From the NCBI GenBank assembly GCA_015071005.1, contig SVIG01000006.1, positions 1 through 64,000 on the forward strand: a stretch of DNA of 64,000 bases, written 5' to 3'. Both the position numbers and the translations under genes were made by a program. Below the pieces are notes generated by a model. It did not search any database, was not told where the DNA came from, and saw only the letters and a program-made list of their open reading frames with translations. Positions 2,138-11,822 of this stretch are shown here, in pieces; within the stretch, counting starts at the first letter, position 1, and each line of letters starts with the position of its first letter. This DNA is from Clostridiales bacterium. Lineage in GTDB: Bacteria > Bacillota > Clostridia > Christensenellales > Borkfalkiaceae.

Positions 2138-2172
2138 CAAAAAACCCGTGAAAATCAAACGATTTTCACGGG
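2138..2172 (-). terminator. Terminator of the tRNA-Pro transcript
   Basis: CCCGTGAAAATC and GATTTTCACGGG form a perfect 12-bp stem with a four-base loop. On the - strand it is followed by a run of seven T, directly after the tRNA CCA end. A + strand T-run also exists, so it may act in both directions. Confidence 0.9.
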
Positions 2173-2176
2173 TTTT

Positions 2177-2252
2177 TGGTCGAGGCGACGGGGATCGAAC
2201 CCACGACCTCAGCGTCCCGAACGCTGCGCGCTACCAGCTGCGCTACGCCTCG
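2177..2252 (-). tRNA. tRNA-Pro (anticodon CGG)
   Basis: The - strand folds as a complete cloverleaf. The acceptor stem is CGAGGCG/CGCCTCG with A73 and an encoded CCA. The D-arm is GCGC-AGCTGGTA-GCGC. The anticodon stem is CAGCG/CGCTG with loop TTCGGGA, giving anticodon CGG. The T-arm is GTGGG-TTCGATC-CCCGT. It is the last element of an array in which two 5' halves of the same tRNA precede it, driven by a consensus promoter at 2660-2688, and it is followed by a strong terminator. As it is the only full copy here, it is presumably the functional gene. Confidence 0.95.
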
Positions 2253-2407
2253 ATTTTTCAGTTTTTTATCTATTTTCGTAAGTGGTCAAACATGTGGTCA
2301 AGCCACTTATTTCGAACGTTTTGTAGAAAAGTGTACCGCCCGAATTTTCAGTGTTGTCAAGGGGTTCAGAGGTTCGAAAAAATCTACCAAGGAAAGCCCT
2401 TGTGGGT

Positions 2408-2446
2408 GTCCCGAACGCTGCGCGCTACCAGCTGCGCTACGCCTCG
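2408..2446 (-). pseudogene. tRNA-Pro 5'-half fragment (copy 2)
   Basis: It is identical to the 5' half of the intact tRNA-Pro, from the first acceptor base to just past the anticodon loop. The anticodon-stem 3' side, T-arm and acceptor 3' strand are absent, so it cannot fold as a tRNA. It lies on the same predicted transcript as the functional gene. Confidence 0.85.
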
Positions 2447-2602
2447 ATTTTTTCAAGTTTTTATCTATTTTCGTAAGTGGTCAAACATGTGGTCAAGCCA
2501 CTTATTTCGAACGTTTTGTAGAAAAGTGTACCGCCCGAATTGTCAGTGTTGTCAAGGGGTTCAGAGGTTCGAAAAAGTCTGCCAAGGAAAGCCCTTGTGG
2601 GT

Positions 2603-2641
2603 GTCCCGAACGCGACGCGCTACCAACTGCGCTACGCCTCG
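2603..2641 (-). pseudogene. tRNA-Pro 5'-half fragment (copy 3, diverged)
   Basis: This is the promoter-proximal 5' half. It carries substitutions relative to the intact tRNA in the D-arm and anticodon stem region (CGACGCG for CTGCGCG; CCAACTG for CCAGCTG on the + strand). It begins about ten bases after the predicted transcription start, the place where the original tRNA gene would be expected. Confidence 0.85.
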
Positions 2642-2659
2642 ATTCATCGAACGAATTAC

Positions 2660-2688
2660 ATTATAGCAAATCCTTTTGTAAATGTCAA
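2660..2688 (-). promoter_or_regulatory. Consensus sigma-A promoter for the tRNA-Pro array
   Basis: On the - strand TTGACA and TATAAT are both perfect and separated by 17 bases. Transcription should start near 2653, just before the first tRNA fragment. Confidence 0.9.
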
Positions 2689-2789
2689 ACCTTTTTTAAG
2701 GTCAAATAATATTTTTTTCTTGGTTCTCGGCGTAAGCCCACAGTGTTTATTCTATTTTTGTCATTTTTTCCGTTTTTTCAAATTTATTC

Positions 2790-4289: not shown

Positions 4290-7200
4290 ATGAAGAAAAC
4301 GACAAAGCGTATTCTTTGCGGAGCACTTTCCGCAATGATGCTGTCCACGGTCGCGATTGAAGGCGCGTTACGCTGGAAGGATGCGGATGGCTCTGTATTG
4401 GATTCGGCTGCGACAAGCGCGGCAGACGTGACGTTTAAGAACGTGACGGGGCAATATGATACGTCCAAGCTCCGAGAGGAGAATTTCAATTCCAACGTAA
4501 TCAAGAACGAAGACGTCGCGCCTCAATACGAAACGCGCACCGTTATGGTCACGTTGGACGGCAAACCTTTGATTAAGCGCGCGAAGGGGGACGTTACCGA
4601 ATACATAGATTCGTGGTCGGGCGATCTCGCGGCGGCAGAAATTGCCGACGAACAGGACGCGTTTTTGACAAAGCTTAAAAAGACGGGTATTCCTTATTCC
4701 TTGGAACATCGTTATAACACCGTATTGAACGCGGTTGCGATCGAAGTCAATACGAAGTACGTTTCCGACATTAAGAAGATGTCGGGCGTGGACAGCGTTG
4801 TCATTACGACGAGCTATTCGGCACCGAAAACGGCGGCGGTAACGTCGGGCGGCGTTACGTTCAACACCACGCAGGTATATGATACTGGTATTTACGATTC
4901 TTCCAAGTACGCGGAAAAATACGGCTCGGAAATGGTCGTTGCCGTACTCGACACCGGTTTGGACTACACCCACGCGGCGTTCCAAGATTTCAAGACGGAA
5001 GGCGTCGATTATGCGTGGTCGGAAGAATACGTGGCGCAAATGCTCTCTTCGAAAAACTTGGTGGCGGAGGATCGCTCTGGGGCGTTGACGGTAGGCGACG
5101 TATTTATTAGCAACAAAGTGCCTTTCGCGTATGACTATGCGGACGACGATCCCGACGTATATCCTTCTTATTCCAACCACGGTACGCACGTTGCGGGTAT
5201 TATCGGCGGTTATGACGAAGGCGGCTACACCGACGCGGACGGCAATCATATAGACATTCCTTTTGAGGGGGTTGTACCCGATTGTCAACTCGTTATTTGT
5301 AAAGTATTCACGGACGATCTTGACGACCCCGATATTGGCGGCGCGGTTGCGGAAGACATTGTTGCGGCGCTTGAAGACTGCGTCAAGCTCGGCGTTGACG
5401 TTATCAATATGTCACTCGGTACCTCTTGCGGCTTCACGACGACGAACGACGGCGACGATGAAGGGAAAATGCTCAATAGCGTATACGAAAGTATCCAAGA
5501 CAAGGGGATTAGCTTGATCTGTGCGGCGAGCAACGATTATAGCGCGGGCTACGGCGGCGTTTACGGTACGAACCTTGCAACCAACCCCGACTCGGGTACG
5601 GTAGGTTCGCCTTCCACCTTCGCGGCGGCACTCTCCGTTGCAAGTATCAACGGTCAGCAAGCGCCTTACGTAAGAGCGAACGCTGGCGATCCCAACCGTG
5701 AATCGGTTGTATTCTATGAAGAATCCCGCGACATCGACGGCAACCCGTACGATTTCGTGAACGATATGTATAAGCGCTACGGCAAGACGACGTTTGAATA
5801 CGTGCTCGTGCCCGGCGTTGGTGACTCGACGGACTACGGTTCGTCGGTAAGAAGCTTGTTTGTGGATGCGAACGGCAACAACTTGAACAGAATCGCGGTC
5901 GTAAAACGTGGTGACGCTACCTTCCAAAAGAAAGTGGAAGTTGCGATGAAGATGGGCGCGGCTGGTATCATCGTATACAACAACGTTGCAGGCGTTATCC
6001 GTATGAACCTTGGTGAAATCGACAACCCGATTCCTGCCGTATCCATTACGATGAACGCGGGCGCGGCGTTGGCACAGGTACAAAGCTACTCGAAAGACGA
6101 GCTCGCGGCAGGCAAGACCAACCGTGTGGGTACGATTGAACTTTCCGCGGCTTACACGGCAGGTCCTTTCATGAGTGAATTCTCCTCTTGGGGACCTACG
6201 CACGATTTGAAATTGAAGCCGGAAATCACGGCGCACGGCGGGGAAATCACTTCTGCCGTACCCGGCGGTTACGGCGAACAAAGCGGTACGTCGATGGCGT
6301 CGCCGAACATGGCAGGCTTCATGGCGCTTATCCGCAGCTATATCGAAAAAGAATTTGGGATTGATAATCCCGTAGAAGTCAACCGTCTTGCAATGCAGCT
6401 TACGATGAGTACGGCAGGTACGGTATACGATCAAGACGGCTTACCTTATTCGCCGAGAAAGCAGGGCGCAGGCGTTGCGAGAATGGAAAACGTTATCGAC
6501 TACACGCAAGCGTACCTTTGGACGGACGTGGAGAGAAACGATTACCGTCCGAAAATTGAAGTTTTTGATAACACGGAAGGGGTTTACGAGCTGAACTTTA
6601 ACGTAACGAACTTCAGTAAAACGGACGACTTGACCTTCAAGCCTACGCACCTTGCGATGACGGAAACGCTTTCGCGCGATAAGCTGACGGTTGCGGAACA
6701 AGCGCGTATGCTCGATAGAGCGCAAGCGAGCTGGAAGGTAAACGGCAAGGCTTTGGAAAACGGTGAAAAAATCACCGTGGGCGCGGGTAAATCCGCAAGC
6801 ATCAGCGTGACCCTTGTCCTTGATCAAACGGAAAAAGATTATATCAATGAAAGCTTCAAAAACGGTATGTACGTAGAAGGTTTCTTGCAGCTTATTTCCG
6901 AGACGGAAGGTCAATGCGATTTGAGCATTCCTTTCCTTGGTTTCTATGGTGATTGGGACGACGCGCCCATGCTCGACTACACGGCGTTTGAAGTCGCTGC
7001 GGACGCGCAAAACGACGCGATTGTCGAAGAAAACAAAAAGAAAGCAAGCGTATGGGAAACCCTTCCTTACACGTCTTACTATAACGAAAAATATATTTTG
7101 CCCATGGGCGGTTATACCTATCTTCTTGCGGAAGACGACGAACCCATGTACGTAAACGAAGACCATTGCGCAGTATCCCGTTATAACGAATATTACGGCG

Positions 7201-10200
7201 AAGGCAACACGGAAAACTACATGACGTCCACGCAAATCAAAGCGGTGTACGCTGGTTTGCTTCGCAACGCGCGTGTGGTAAGATACAGTATGTATAACGT
7301 AGACACGGGCGAAGTGATTATCCAAGATAAGATTATCAACCGCGTCGGCAAAGCGTACTCGGGCGGCGGCAGCGCAGTACCTGCGAACGTCGAGTTGGAA
7401 ATTAGTCCCGAAGAGGCAGGGCTTGTTGCGAACGGTAAATATCGTATCGATTTAGAGTTCTTCAAGGATACACCCGTAGCAGGGGAAAGAGCGAGCGAGG
7501 AAAACACCTACTCCTTCTCGTATACGGTAGACTATGAAGCGCCGATTCTCGACGACGTACGCGTACGTTATTATAACTACAAGGACGGGAACGTTGAAAA
7601 GCAACGTATCTATTTGGATATCGACGTATTTGATAACCACTACGCGCAAGCGTTAATGCTTTGCTATCCCGTTACCGATTCCGAAGGGCAAGTCAGCTTG
7701 ATGTTGGCAACGGAGTATCCTACGCCCATTCGTGACGCAAATAAGAACGGTACGACGACCGTTTCGATCGAAGTAACGGATATCTATGAAAAACACGGCG
7801 GTCAGCTGTACGTGCAGATCGACGACTATGCGGTAAATAGCTGTTTGTATCAGCTTGATATTAACAAAGCAAACGCAAGCGTACTGCCCGAAGGCGGCGC
7901 GTTCACGCTCGAAGAAGGCTGTGAAAACGTAACGCTGGGTATTTACGAAACGCGTAAGATTGGCTTGACCTATGACGATTCCTTCACGGCGGCGGATCCT
8001 TCGAACTTCCTTTGGACGTCGATGAATCCTGGTATTGCGGACGTGAAGAACGGCGAAATCGTTGGTTTGAAGACTGGTACGACGGAAATTGCGGTAAGCA
8101 ACCGTAAGGGCGGCACGAAGAATATTCAAGTCACCGTTACGGAAGACGTACATGCGTCTCTTCCCAACGTACCGATCATTTCCTTCGGTTTGATTAAGAC
8201 GGACACCGAATCCCTTCAAAAAGCGGAAGGGGTGGTTGCGGTCAATGCGGGTAAGGAATTCGCTTTGACGGTTGAAGCGGATCCTTGGTATCATCCGATG
8301 ACGAATCTCCGCCTTGCGTGGAAGAGCTTGAACGAAGACGTGGCGACGGTAGATCAAAACGGCAACGTGCGCACCCTTCGCGACGGTTCGGCGGCGCTCT
8401 CTGCGACGATAGAAAGAAAGGTCGTTAGCGGCGGCGTAGAAAAATGGGAAACAACGTGGAGCTCGGCGAACGTGACCTTGAGAGTCCAAGACGAATTCCG
8501 CGTGGCAAACTTCACGCTCCAAGATTATAACGGCGTGGGCGGCGTAGTCAAGATTCCCACCGACTTGAATATTATGTATATCGGTGACGAAGCGTTCAAG
8601 GATAACGACAATATCACGAAGATTATCATTCCTTCGTCCGTTGTTCAAATCAATCCTCGCGCGTTTATGAATTGTACGGCGCTGGAAGAAGTACATTTCG
8701 TATCCGAAGATCATCGCCAAGACGAAAACGGCAACGATATCGACTACGGCGTGGACGAAAACGGCGAAAAAATCGTAATCGACTGGTCGGATTTGACGCT
8801 CATCTACGAGCAAGCGTTCTATAACTGCCCGAATTTGAGATTGGTCGACCTTTCCAACGTTAAGACGATTACGGTAGACTATTTGAGCTTTGCGGAATGT
8901 CCGAAGCTTGAAACGGTCGTAGATATGGCAAGCATCGGTACGATGCACCACCAAGCCTTCATGAACGCGGCGTTCAAGAGCGTAGACCTTACGGGCTTGC
9001 ACATGAGCGGACAATACGTGTTCCAAGGCTGCGACCAAATCACGAAAATTGAGACGGGTAAGTTCACGGCAATCGGCGATTATATGTTCGCAGGCTGCTC
9101 CGCGCTTACCGAAGTGGTTATTAAGACGCCGAAAGTAGGCGTAGGCGCGTTCTCGGGTTGTGAAAACTTGACGAGCGTTACCTTCGACGACGGCGTAGCG
9201 GCAGGAAGCAAGGGCGCGTTGAATTTCGATATCGGCGCGAGAGCCTTTGAAAACTGCGGCAAGAGCGCAAAGGTTGCGTTGAGCGTAGATTTCGGCGACG
9301 AAATCATTCGTTCAATCGGCAGCAGAGCGTTTGCTGGTACGAACATTAAAGAACTCGACTTCTCGCAAATGCAGGGCTTGAAGAGCCTTGGCTCGGACGT
9401 CTTTGCAGGCGTTGCAAGCATTGACGAAATCAAGATCGGTGACGGCGTTGATTTGGCGGCAATCCAAATGAATGGCGCGCCGTTTAGCGGCAAAACGGTC
9501 ACGGTGGCAAGCGGCTCTGCGTTGTACGTAGAAGAAAACGGCGTAATCTATAACGCAAATATGACGAAGCTTTTCTTTGTCAACGAATCGGTGACGGGTA
9601 AGTTCACGATGCCTACGTCGGTAAGAAAAATTGCCGATTATGCGTTTGCAAACAGCGCGATTACGGAAATCGTGATGAGCCCGAATTTGACGGATATTGG
9701 CAGCTACGCATTCTTTAATGCGAAAGTAGAAAAGGTAGATTTCAACGGCGCGGCTTTGAGCGAAATCGGGGTTGGCGCGTTCTACGGCTCGATGGTTAGA
9801 GACGTCGTATTGCCCGATAGCGTAGAATGGGTGAAGGATTATGCGTTTGCAGAATCGGCTATTCACACGTTTACGGCAAACAACTTGAAAGAACTTGGCA
9901 ACGGCGTATTTGAAAACTGTATCGTAATGCAAGAAATTACGCTTGTCGACGGTATCAAGAAAATGGGCAACAGCACGTTTGCGGGCTGTATCAACTTGGA
10001 GAAGGTTTCGCTTCCTTCCGTAAATAGCCTTGGAAGATACACCTTCCGCGGCGCAACGCAGCTTGTAGAAGTAAGCTTTGGCGCGAATGCAACGACGACG
10101 GGTACGTATACGTTTGCAGGCTCGTCCGTTGCAACGGTTGTATTCAATGGCGAACAAATCACGGAAATCGGCGCGGGCACGTTTAGTCAGGTTGGTAACG

Positions 10201-11822
10201 TATCGATTAAGAGTATGCACGAAGGTCAGCTTATCGAAGGTTTGCCTTCGAGCGTGAAGGCAATCGGCGATTATGCGTTCAACGGTGTACGCATTCGTGC
10301 ATTGAAGGGACTTGATCAAATCGAATTCTTCGGCAACTACTCCTTCTACAACACGAATTTTAGCGCTTTGGATTTGACGAGTGCGCTCGATATCGGTGAG
10401 ATGGCGTTCGCAACGCAAGATAGAAACGCGTCCTATACGAGCATTTCCATGCCCAACGTTATCCACATTAGAAACTATGCCTTCTTGAACGGTATGGAAG
10501 AAGAAGTGATCCTTCCTGCAAGCGTACAAAGCATCGGCGAAGGCGCGTTTGCATCGAGTGCAAACTTGAAGAAGTTTACGGTAGAAGGCGGTGACAAGTT
10601 CTTCGTTAGCGAAGACGGTGTGCTTTATCGCTACTTGGATAAAGCGGCGAAGAAATACGAGCTTGCGGCATATCCTGCGGCGTTGAACGCACAGGGCGAA
10701 GCTGGTGCAAGAGAGTGTTCGATTTTGGAAGGTACGGTTCGCGTGCAAGCGTATGCGTTCTATCAATTAAATAGCGGCACGATCGACAAGGTTGTCCTTC
10801 CGTACAGCGTGAAGTCGATTGGCGATAGCGCATTCTATCAAAGCGGTATTAAGCATTATACCTTTGAAAGCATTGTTGCTCCTATTTTGGAAACGGTATA
10901 CCGCTCTGAAATCGAAACGGCAATCGAAGAAAGCTCGACGATTGCGTACTACAAGGGTTATTACTACTCCAACTTTGAAAATCTTATCTACTATTACAGT
11001 GATTACGTTCGCGAGGCAAGCCCGATTTCTATGAGCTATCCTTCGAACGGCGAGGGTTATGATAACCATATCTACAAGCTCTATTTCGGCGAAAGAAAGC
11101 AGCTTGGTATCTATATGGAAGACTTGACTCGTGAAATCATTGCAAACATTGAAAAATTCACGGAGATGATTCCGGATATTCTTTCGTGGACGGAAAACGT
11201 TACGGAAGAAAACAAGGCGAAATTGGAAGTTTTGGCGGAAGAATTGAAGCAAACGCGTTCGAATTACAATACGGTGAAGATGAACGCCGAGCAATTCGTT
11301 TATATCACCGAGGAACTTTCCAATGCGCTTATGGACGTGGAATTGAAGGTGCGTGAAGCGAAAGCGGCTTACGGTATTGTAACCAAGATTAGCGGCTTGC
11401 AGCTTTATGAAGGCGCGGTGTATAAAGTCGATTATCTTGTCGGCGAATACTTCGATATGACGGGCTTGCAGCTGGTTGTTGTATACGAAGACTACTCGAC
11501 GGAAATCGTTGGCGTAGAAGAAATCACCCTTCTTACAACGACGGCGCTTACGAGCAGACATAAATACGTAGAAGTGTCCTGCCGCGGCGATAAAACGCGT
11601 ATCCCCGTTACCGTAACGGAAAAGAAAACGAACGCGGATGCCGACGATAAGAGAGAGCCCGAAATCTCTGAAACGCCCGAAACTTCCGAAAAGAAGGAAA
11701 ACAAGGACGGCTGTGGAAGCGTTGTTAGCGGCGCGACCTTGAGTGCAATTACGCTTGCAACGGCTTGCGTAGCATTGTTTGGTAAAAAGAGAAAGGCTGA
11801 TAAAGCCGATTCCGAAAAATAA
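4290..11822 (+). CDS. Giant cell-surface subtilase with BspA-type LRR and Ig-like domains
   Basis: This 2510-residue exported protein is built like a cell-envelope serine protease. After a signal peptide (about residues 1-29) comes an S8 catalytic domain with the full triad: Asp221 in VLDTG, His297 in HGTHVAG and Ser668 in SGTSMASP. A PA insert lies at about 470-625, with an Fn3-like region to about 880. Two Big_2-like Ig domains follow (about 1200-1400). A long run of LRR_5/BspA-type repeats (IGDEAF, IGSYAF, IKKMGNSTFAG) fills about 1403-2197. A helical region and a Big_3-like domain (about 2368-2447) come next. The end is GCGS, a hydrophobic helix and KKRK, with no LPXTG. It probably cleaves host or dietary protein at the surface. 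It has its own promoter and a GGGAGG ribosome site. Confidence 0.9.
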   Translation: MKKTTKRILCGALSAMMLSTVAIEGALRWKDADGSVLDSAATSAADVTFKNVTGQYDTSKLREENFNSNVIKNEDVAPQYETRTVMVTLDGKPLIKRAKGDVTEYIDSWSGDLAAAEIADEQDAFLTKLKKTGIPYSLEHRYNTVLNAVAIEVNTKYVSDIKKMSGVDSVVITTSYSAPKTAAVTSGGVTFNTTQVYDTGIYDSSKYAEKYGSEMVVAVLDTGLDYTHAAFQDFKTEGVDYAWSEEYVAQMLSSKNLVAEDRSGALTVGDVFISNKVPFAYDYADDDPDVYPSYSNHGTHVAGIIGGYDEGGYTDADGNHIDIPFEGVVPDCQLVICKVFTDDLDDPDIGGAVAEDIVAALEDCVKLGVDVINMSLGTSCGFTTTNDGDDEGKMLNSVYESIQDKGISLICAASNDYSAGYGGVYGTNLATNPDSGTVGSPSTFAAALSVASINGQQAPYVRANAGDPNRESVVFYEESRDIDGNPYDFVNDMYKRYGKTTFEYVLVPGVGDSTDYGSSVRSLFVDANGNNLNRIAVVKRGDATFQKKVEVAMKMGAAGIIVYNNVAGVIRMNLGEIDNPIPAVSITMNAGAALAQVQSYSKDELAAGKTNRVGTIELSAAYTAGPFMSEFSSWGPTHDLKLKPEITAHGGEITSAVPGGYGEQSGTSMASPNMAGFMALIRSYIEKEFGIDNPVEVNRLAMQLTMSTAGTVYDQDGLPYSPRKQGAGVARMENVIDYTQAYLWTDVERNDYRPKIEVFDNTEGVYELNFNVTNFSKTDDLTFKPTHLAMTETLSRDKLTVAEQARMLDRAQASWKVNGKALENGEKITVGAGKSASISVTLVLDQTEKDYINESFKNGMYVEGFLQLISETEGQCDLSIPFLGFYGDWDDAPMLDYTAFEVAADAQNDAIVEENKKKASVWETLPYTSYYNEKYILPMGGYTYLLAEDDEPMYVNEDHCAVSRYNEYYGEGNTENYMTSTQIKAVYAGLLRNARVVRYSMYNVDTGEVIIQDKIINRVGKAYSGGGSAVPANVELEISPEEAGLVANGKYRIDLEFFKDTPVAGERASEENTYSFSYTVDYEAPILDDVRVRYYNYKDGNVEKQRIYLDIDVFDNHYAQALMLCYPVTDSEGQVSLMLATEYPTPIRDANKNGTTTVSIEVTDIYEKHGGQLYVQIDDYAVNSCLYQLDINKANASVLPEGGAFTLEEGCENVTLGIYETRKIGLTYDDSFTAADPSNFLWTSMNPGIADVKNGEIVGLKTGTTEIAVSNRKGGTKNIQVTVTEDVHASLPNVPIISFGLIKTDTESLQKAEGVVAVNAGKEFALTVEADPWYHPMTNLRLAWKSLNEDVATVDQNGNVRTLRDGSAALSATIERKVVSGGVEKWETTWSSANVTLRVQDEFRVANFTLQDYNGVGGVVKIPTDLNIMYIGDEAFKDNDNITKIIIPSSVVQINPRAFMNCTALEEVHFVSEDHRQDENGNDIDYGVDENGEKIVIDWSDLTLIYEQAFYNCPNLRLVDLSNVKTITVDYLSFAECPKLETVVDMASIGTMHHQAFMNAAFKSVDLTGLHMSGQYVFQGCDQITKIETGKFTAIGDYMFAGCSALTEVVIKTPKVGVGAFSGCENLTSVTFDDGVAAGSKGALNFDIGARAFENCGKSAKVALSVDFGDEIIRSIGSRAFAGTNIKELDFSQMQGLKSLGSDVFAGVASIDEIKIGDGVDLAAIQMNGAPFSGKTVTVASGSALYVEENGVIYNANMTKLFFVNESVTGKFTMPTSVRKIADYAFANSAITEIVMSPNLTDIGSYAFFNAKVEKVDFNGAALSEIGVGAFYGSMVRDVVLPDSVEWVKDYAFAESAIHTFTANNLKELGNGVFENCIVMQEITLVDGIKKMGNSTFAGCINLEKVSLPSVNSLGRYTFRGATQLVEVSFGANATTTGTYTFAGSSVATVVFNGEQITEIGAGTFSQVGNVSIKSMHEGQLIEGLPSSVKAIGDYAFNGVRIRALKGLDQIEFFGNYSFYNTNFSALDLTSALDIGEMAFATQDRNASYTSISMPNVIHIRNYAFLNGMEEEVILPASVQSIGEGAFASSANLKKFTVEGGDKFFVSEDGVLYRYLDKAAKKYELAAYPAALNAQGEAGARECSILEGTVRVQAYAFYQLNSGTIDKVVLPYSVKSIGDSAFYQSGIKHYTFESIVAPILETVYRSEIETAIEESSTIAYYKGYYYSNFENLIYYYSDYVREASPISMSYPSNGEGYDNHIYKLYFGERKQLGIYMEDLTREIIANIEKFTEMIPDILSWTENVTEENKAKLEVLAEELKQTRSNYNTVKMNAEQFVYITEELSNALMDVELKVREAKAAYGIVTKISGLQLYEGAVYKVDYLVGEYFDMTGLQLVVVYEDYSTEIVGVEEITLLTTTALTSRHKYVEVSCRGDKTRIPVTVTEKKTNADADDKREPEISETPETSEKKENKDGCGSVVSGATLSAITLATACVALFGKKRKADKADSEK

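Follow-up and report, generated by a model that had tools for sequence, protein, structure and literature searches.

The window, by which we mean the whole stretch of 64,000 nucleotides that was analysed, carries an intact tRNA-Pro(CGG) gene on the minus strand near its beginning. Between this gene and a consensus promoter lie two 195-bp units, which are arranged head to tail and are 96% identical, far above chance. Each unit consists of the first 39 nucleotides of the tRNA gene (a 5' half) and of a spacer of about 155 bp. A sequence-only reading of this DNA had described two ~195-bp units between a perfect promoter and the full tRNA-Pro gene, with tRNA identity breaking off just past the anticodon loop. 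The coordinates, the unit identity and a consensus scan of the promoter bear this out, and the tRNA identity indeed stops after nucleotide 39. From the promoter towards the contig end, the features are as follows:

2660 to 2688, minus strand: promoter TTGACA-17-TATAAT with TG before the -10 element, 12/12 in the consensus scan
2603 to 2641, minus strand: outer 5' half (tRNA nucleotides 1 to 39), 36/39 identical to the intact gene, anticodon-stem strand TCGCG
2603 to 2611, minus strand: core GTTCGGGAC of the outer half in the anticodon loop, probable crossover region
2447 to 2602, minus strand: outer spacer, subtype a, putative left end of a first inserted element
2477 to 2496, minus strand: paired direct repeat TTGACCACATGTTTGACCAC in the outer spacer, putative integrase arm-type sites
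2408 to 2446, minus strand: inner 5' half (tRNA nucleotides 1 to 39), 39/39 identical to the intact gene
2408 to 2416 and 2214 to 2222, minus strand: further copies of the core GTTCGGGAC
2253 to 2407, minus strand: inner spacer, subtype a, putative left end of a second inserted element
2282 to 2301, minus strand: paired arm-type repeat in the inner spacer, putative integrase arm-type sites
2177 to 2252, minus strand: intact tRNA-Pro(CGG) (ARAGORN; Rfam tRNA, 62.2 bits)
2140 to 2177, minus strand: terminator-like hairpin, an inverted repeat with 17-bp perfect arms, judged by eye
1 to 2137, no strand assigned: low-GC stretch downstream of the tRNA gene to the contig end (38.2% GC at 1 to 2000)

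The hairpin at 2140 to 2177 does not appear in the terminator list of the consensus scan. A similar hairpin is present at L026 and L027, which are loci without 5' units (G denotes a genome and L a locus; G000 is the genome of the window). No second close copy of tRNA-Pro(CGG) was found in this genome, and the 195-bp unit does not occur elsewhere in it, apart from a perfect piece of 27 bp by a tRNA-Pro(AGG) gene on contig C5. A comparison of the unit copy number in related genomes had been proposed as a check on the array. The relatives are Clostridia, Clostridiales or Oscillospiraceae MAGs, many of them from ruminant gut. In other species, the tRNA-Pro(CGG) loci carry 1 to 3 such units, or none. 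Because such units recur at this gene in other species, the array is real and no quirk of a single assembly. In several of these relatives, the contig ends within the array.

The spacer has the appearance of a tyrosine-integrase element's left end. In all measurable units (24/24), 105-107 bp separate the arm pair from the end of the core GTTCGGGAC. This count is without G038, G074 and G198, in which the arm pair is cut off and its position would have to be assumed; G073 was left out of the unit table because its contig ends inside the spacer. The exact arm pair occurs in 14 of 57 genomes of the genus. The 27-bp piece on contig C5 lies between the tRNA-Pro(AGG) gene and a Phage_integrase gene and contains TTGACCAC-atg-TTTGACCAC, a direct repeat whose arrangement suggests paired integrase arm sites, to which an integrase would bind. 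We take it to be comparable with the arm sites of phage lambda. In the AGG element of this genome (L009), the distance between the arm pair and the equivalent position in the anticodon loop is about 106 bp. The distance is 116 bp behind the G068 gene and larger, about 161-172 bp, at the tRNA-Pro(GGG) genes L047, L048 and L054.

Phage_integrase genes lie behind the arm repeat in L009, L048 and L079, and in L079 they are downstream of a two-unit CGG array. Both L048 and L079 have two tandem integrase genes; the left-end arm repeat is exact in L048 and altered in L079. In this respect they resemble the MTnPi elements, named in PMC5704250 as tandem pairs of tyrosine recombinases, and elements of this dual-integrase type are candidate agents, their products candidate enzymes, for insertion at tRNA-Pro(CGG).

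Across the relatives, the spacers sort into subtypes a, b and c and a few singletons. With the subtype-c spacer, 398 genomes of the family were searched. G419, G089, G031 and G417, which belong to three genera, have a 5' half of the host type, then spacer c, and then one identical complete tRNA-Pro(CGG). This foreign tRNA differs from the half in front of it, and the host halves differ from each other. The spacers of G031 and G089 are identical although the genomes belong to different genera. In G031, G417, G038 and G073, the host gene is split: the 5' half and the spacer are on one contig, and the matching host 3' half is on another contig, where it follows a conserved right end and the core. 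The right end of G031 and G417 also has the arm repeat. When the host halves are joined, all four own pairs give full acceptor (7/7) and anticodon (5/5) stems, as against 1/12 cross-pairs. The joined G038 halves equal the uninterrupted gene of relatives, and the joined G031 halves equal the gene of L114 (G055). The matching split halves and the foreign tRNA hence point to the anticodon loop as the insertion point, to a host gene broken by the insertion and to a whole substitute supplied with it.

In four genomes, the sequence common to the right end and the host gene is limited to [G]TTCGGG[A/T]C, or 8-9 bp within the anticodon loop, and this shared core is too short to rebuild the host tRNA. 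The core GTTCGGGAC also borders displaced 3' halves in L116, L197 and L190. As no contig spans the insertion, we infer only that the two contigs of one split gene flank one element; a complete CGG-type element, core to core, is on no contig. The G031 contig holds 2.3 kb of interior sequence, and one of the four ORFs in the 2.3-kb interior in L238 was scanned and gave no Pfam match. The separate contigs for the host halves in four relatives indicate that at least the subtype-c form is not tiny. One of the two earlier proposals, repeated insertion of a tiny element with the tRNA 5' half as its attachment core, thus holds in outline as repeated insertion at the tRNA. The attachment core must be replaced by the 8-9 bp that the right ends share, and the small size does not apply to subtype c in the four relatives, given the divided host halves and the G031 interior.

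We consider it probable that the array in the window is the scar of two successive site-specific insertions of replacement-tRNA elements into the anticodon loop of tRNA-Pro(CGG), with the element bodies now gone. Tyrosine-integrase elements would recombine at the 8-9 bp core GTTCGGGAC. Insertion would split the resident gene in such a way that the promoter and the 5' half stay and the 3' half is pushed beyond the element. The left end of the element would be the 155-bp spacer with its paired arm sites, followed in the same direction by a complete replacement tRNA-Pro(CGG). This replacement tRNA would have no strong promoter of its own and would sit downstream of the captured host promoter. The next element would insert into the replacement tRNA, and each round would leave one unit of old 5' half plus spacer. 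The element body would be lost later, perhaps via recombination of the working tRNA with the displaced 3' half.

Applied to the window, the promoter would be the presumed original host tRNA-Pro promoter, captured by the insertions. The outer half would be what is left of the host gene from before the first insertion, and the inner half would be the leftover of the replacement tRNA from the first element, split by the second. The outer half has the stem strand TCGCG versus CAGCG/CGCTG in the working gene, which suggests that both halves of the working gene arrived together. The same TCGCG strand is found in the intact genes of G006, G011 and G050. The divergence of the outermost half that had been noted before is thus real (36/39), but this half is not simply a degraded inner copy, as its stem strand matches other intact genes. 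The order that had been described as copying from the inside outwards is better put as the oldest half outside and the newest tRNA inside.

Split genes were seen only with subtype c, in 4/10 genomes having c as the main unit. The window, with subtype a, has neither a displaced 3' half nor a right end, and its subtype-a body appears to be missing, either lost or never there. The search for a displaced 3' half was also negative in its own genome and in 13 genomes of the genus that carry units of subtype a or b or singletons and are incomplete assemblies. Since bodies were never seen for the window's subtype, the unit itself could be mobile: a gene-free miniature element of ~195-275 bp, moved in trans by a related integrase, would consist of the spacer with core and arm sites and of a replacement tRNA, or the 5' half of one, that has no strong promoter, and no large body would ever have been here. 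It would capture the promoter of the broken tRNA gene and add one unit per round. The missing 3' halves agree with this, as do the nearly constant core-to-arm distance in 24/24 units and the fact that several units resemble those of other species more than the units next to them. However, subtype c has the same layout and yet a separate right end that abuts the host 3' half in four genomes, along with the 2.3 kb of interior sequence in G031, and the unit is without a right-end arm region. We regard the miniature element as rather unlikely; if it were true, the array would count past invasions.

The insertion reading with lost bodies also has to be compared with ordinary tandem duplication, in which a single insertion was followed by unequal crossing-over that multiplied the 195-bp unit. 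The window units are head to tail and 96% identical, and by identity the outer unit is nearest to its own neighbour, the inner unit (96.7%), as duplication would have it. However, the inner spacer is nearer to the G006 unit (98.0% versus 96.7% to the outer spacer), and the tree pairs the outer unit with G028 (support 87/85). Moreover, the arrays of G023 (a-b-a) and G019 (a-b, then a c-like third unit truncated where the contig stops) mix subtypes, and the nearest relative of their units is not the array neighbour. We therefore hold duplication to be improbable as the origin of the array. The tree of 24 spacers is poorly resolved, with strong support for 1/20 inner branches, and as most of its forks lack resolution, one duplication step in the window could have occurred.

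The greater likeness of several units to those of other species than to neighbours in the array suggests that they spread as units. Judged from the spacers, separate arrivals of the units are clear for G023 and G019 and only suggested for the two units of the window. In G027, a genus-type half comes first, then spacer c, and the contig ends with 23 nt of a half like that of G068, a genome of another genus. G000 (2 units), G050 (1 unit), G023 (3 units), G052 (no 5' unit) and G038 (split) share a conserved promoter side of the locus.

The promoter before the outermost half scores 11-12/12 in 17 of the 22 loci with units. Within the spacers, promoters reach at most 10/12 in 27 spacers examined, three of which are incomplete. 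A score of 9 is found for 17/27 real spacers, and shuffled spacers reach at least 9 in 244/1350 cases. The best spacer candidate, TTGACC-18-GAAAAT (9/12), could be weakly active. The consensus scan also lists a weak terminator-like hairpin in the inner spacer of the window. The promoter-side half is decayed (21-33/39 ungapped matches) in 5/15 readable genus loci, or in 5/12 when subtypes a, b or singletons are counted; G014 was left out because no half precedes its spacer. The four inner halves readable in the genus have 37-39/39 matches. The kept outer promoter together with the decayed halves fits a captured promoter that would read through dead halves to the working gene.

The second earlier proposal was a functional locus for tRNA-half-like RNAs, for example decoys for anticodon nucleases or RNase P. 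The strong promoter would transcribe the halves, and folding is slightly better than in shuffled sequences for a single subtype-b and a single subtype-c spacer (z -2.25 and -2.35). Nevertheless, the promoter-side halves have decayed in the 5/15 genus loci mentioned above, the window spacers fold within 1.6 sd of shuffles (z -1.58 and -0.82), no Rfam family scores above its cut-off on the spacers, and the exact arm pair is missing in 43/57 genus genomes, which are incomplete. The proposal finds no support here, and we judge such a locus very improbable. A structured RNA gene was likewise rejected on the missing Rfam family and the weak folding in the window.

Among known systems, the closest to replacement-tRNA integration followed by body loss are tRNA-dependent lysogeny and tandem accretion. 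The former is described for the mycobacteriophages Fionnbharth, LeBron, Gaia and others (PMC10865867) and, as far as that account goes, is alike in the short core, the broken tRNA and the carried tRNA. Here, too, the element carries a complete tRNA of the disrupted isotype, namely the identical tRNA-Pro(CGG) behind the spacer in four genomes. In Fionnbharth, the phage tRNA is elsewhere in the phage genome and its own upstream promoter was shown (PMC10865867). In the present elements, by contrast, ~150 bp of left end precede the replacement tRNA, which lies in line with the host promoter but lacks a strong one itself, and an array builds up over repeated rounds. The host here is, to judge from its relatives, not an actinobacterium, and the element would be a phage only putatively.

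A site centred on the anticodon is common among the islands compiled by Islander (2083/3919; PMC4383910). By the Islander description, these islands are alike in that the tRNA gene is split and a displaced fragment marks the island end (PMC4383910). The corresponding trait, a split host gene with its halves at two ends, is found in the four subtype-c relatives and was not seen in the window. Islander gives a 5' fragment for 159/3919 islands (PMC4383910), whereas here such fragments follow one another in tandem and no island separates them. CIMEs and tandem accretion (PMC5704250) and the ssrA islands of Dehalococcoides (PMC3146451) are alike, in the parts of these accounts that bear on it, in that repeated insertion leaves serial repeats. 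CIMEs are also described as integrase-free remnants with att sites (PMC5704250). A CIME keeps both attL and attR after loss of the integrase, whereas in the window left-end junctions are present and no right end was found. The Dehalococcoides ssrA repeats are reported within 100 kb downstream of the gene and involve a serine recombinase (PMC3146451); the 195-bp units, unlike these, pile up between promoter and gene. No description of promoter-side 5'-half arrays or of in-line replacement tRNAs was found in the literature searched, outside of which lie most subscription papers.

Our verdict is that the array would represent ordered scars of repeated replacement-tRNA integration, a variant on known systems. 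Such an element could break a tRNA gene and yet be tolerated, with a substitute tRNA right behind the host promoter. From the leftover halves, the order of invasions at one gene could be read across genera, and replacement-tRNA integration would be extended from actinobacterial phages to gut Clostridia.

Phage origin was searched for in viral contigs and rejected, as the exact 20-mer arm pair and GACCACATGTTTGACCACTTAC are both absent from them. A looser arm pattern matched 20 viral contigs (the matches were counted only). The right end matched one viral contig (L253, 1416-1600), where it abuts a tRNA-Pro 3' half, with phage-like genes alongside as judged by eye. A circle junction of subtype c, in which the right end is joined directly to the left end, was found neither in the viral contigs nor in the 253 loci. 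In L022 (G014, contig 14), a right end is fused straight to a left-end spacer at a core-like site, and this junction precedes a tRNA-Pro whose anticodon stem is mismatched and which has no strong promoter.

Other pieces indicate that further types of insertion act at tRNA-Pro. Sequences that resemble the right end are present in G023 (in an AGG context), G025 (with no tRNA piece) and G026, none of them with a CGG 3' half. G050 and G006 contain pieces of 25 nt from the tRNA-Pro 3' end that have a different conserved flank; the one in G050 lies 5 kb downstream of the array gene. Their positions are about 1000 on the minus strand in L255 and about 680 in L256. Their flank is TTTGCTTTGTTTACT..TTTGAGGG.TGACGG, and a similar flank is found by the integrase of L009. 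These pieces are without the anticodon-stem strand, and none is the missing CGG 3' half.

The low-GC stretch at 1 to 2137 is possibly foreign, and it would belong to the element only putatively. Between 2.8 and 64 kb, the lowest GC content of any 2-kb segment sampled is 40.4%, and the ORF at 1174-2061 was found in 1 of 56 other genus genomes searched. There is no integrase among the three ORFs scanned in 1 to 2138. An EcsC-like ORF, below the Pfam cut-off and rare in the genus, lies in 1 to 2000. The YjbR-like gene (named by eye) downstream of the locus in relatives was not found in this genome.

Some relatives have units on the other side of the gene. At L027 (295-475), L014 (1774-1955), L029, L038 and L019, units of ~174-218 bp lie 3' of tRNA-Pro. 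Each closes with roughly the final 15-20 nt of the tRNA, and several have a terminator of their own. There are at least two sequence types, one of which opens with the reverse complement of the tRNA 3' end. Upstream of tRNA-Pro(CGG), L031 (1680-1820) contains tandem 115-bp tRNA-like units in which 24-26 nt represent the tRNA 5' end and the T-arm region is enlarged; a related copy of the same build is in L018 (1396-1419).

Further observations concern tRNA-Pro(AGG). In L241, two serial displaced 3' halves of this gene lie 5.3 kb apart (5028-5059 and 10379-10410). The conserved right end flanks the second of them, and this arrangement suggests that the AGG gene took up insertions in succession. 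In L076 (~5560-8170), an inverted repeat of ~25 bp, which resembles a tRNA T-arm, borders a 747-aa ORF by tRNA-Pro(AGG), as judged by eye.
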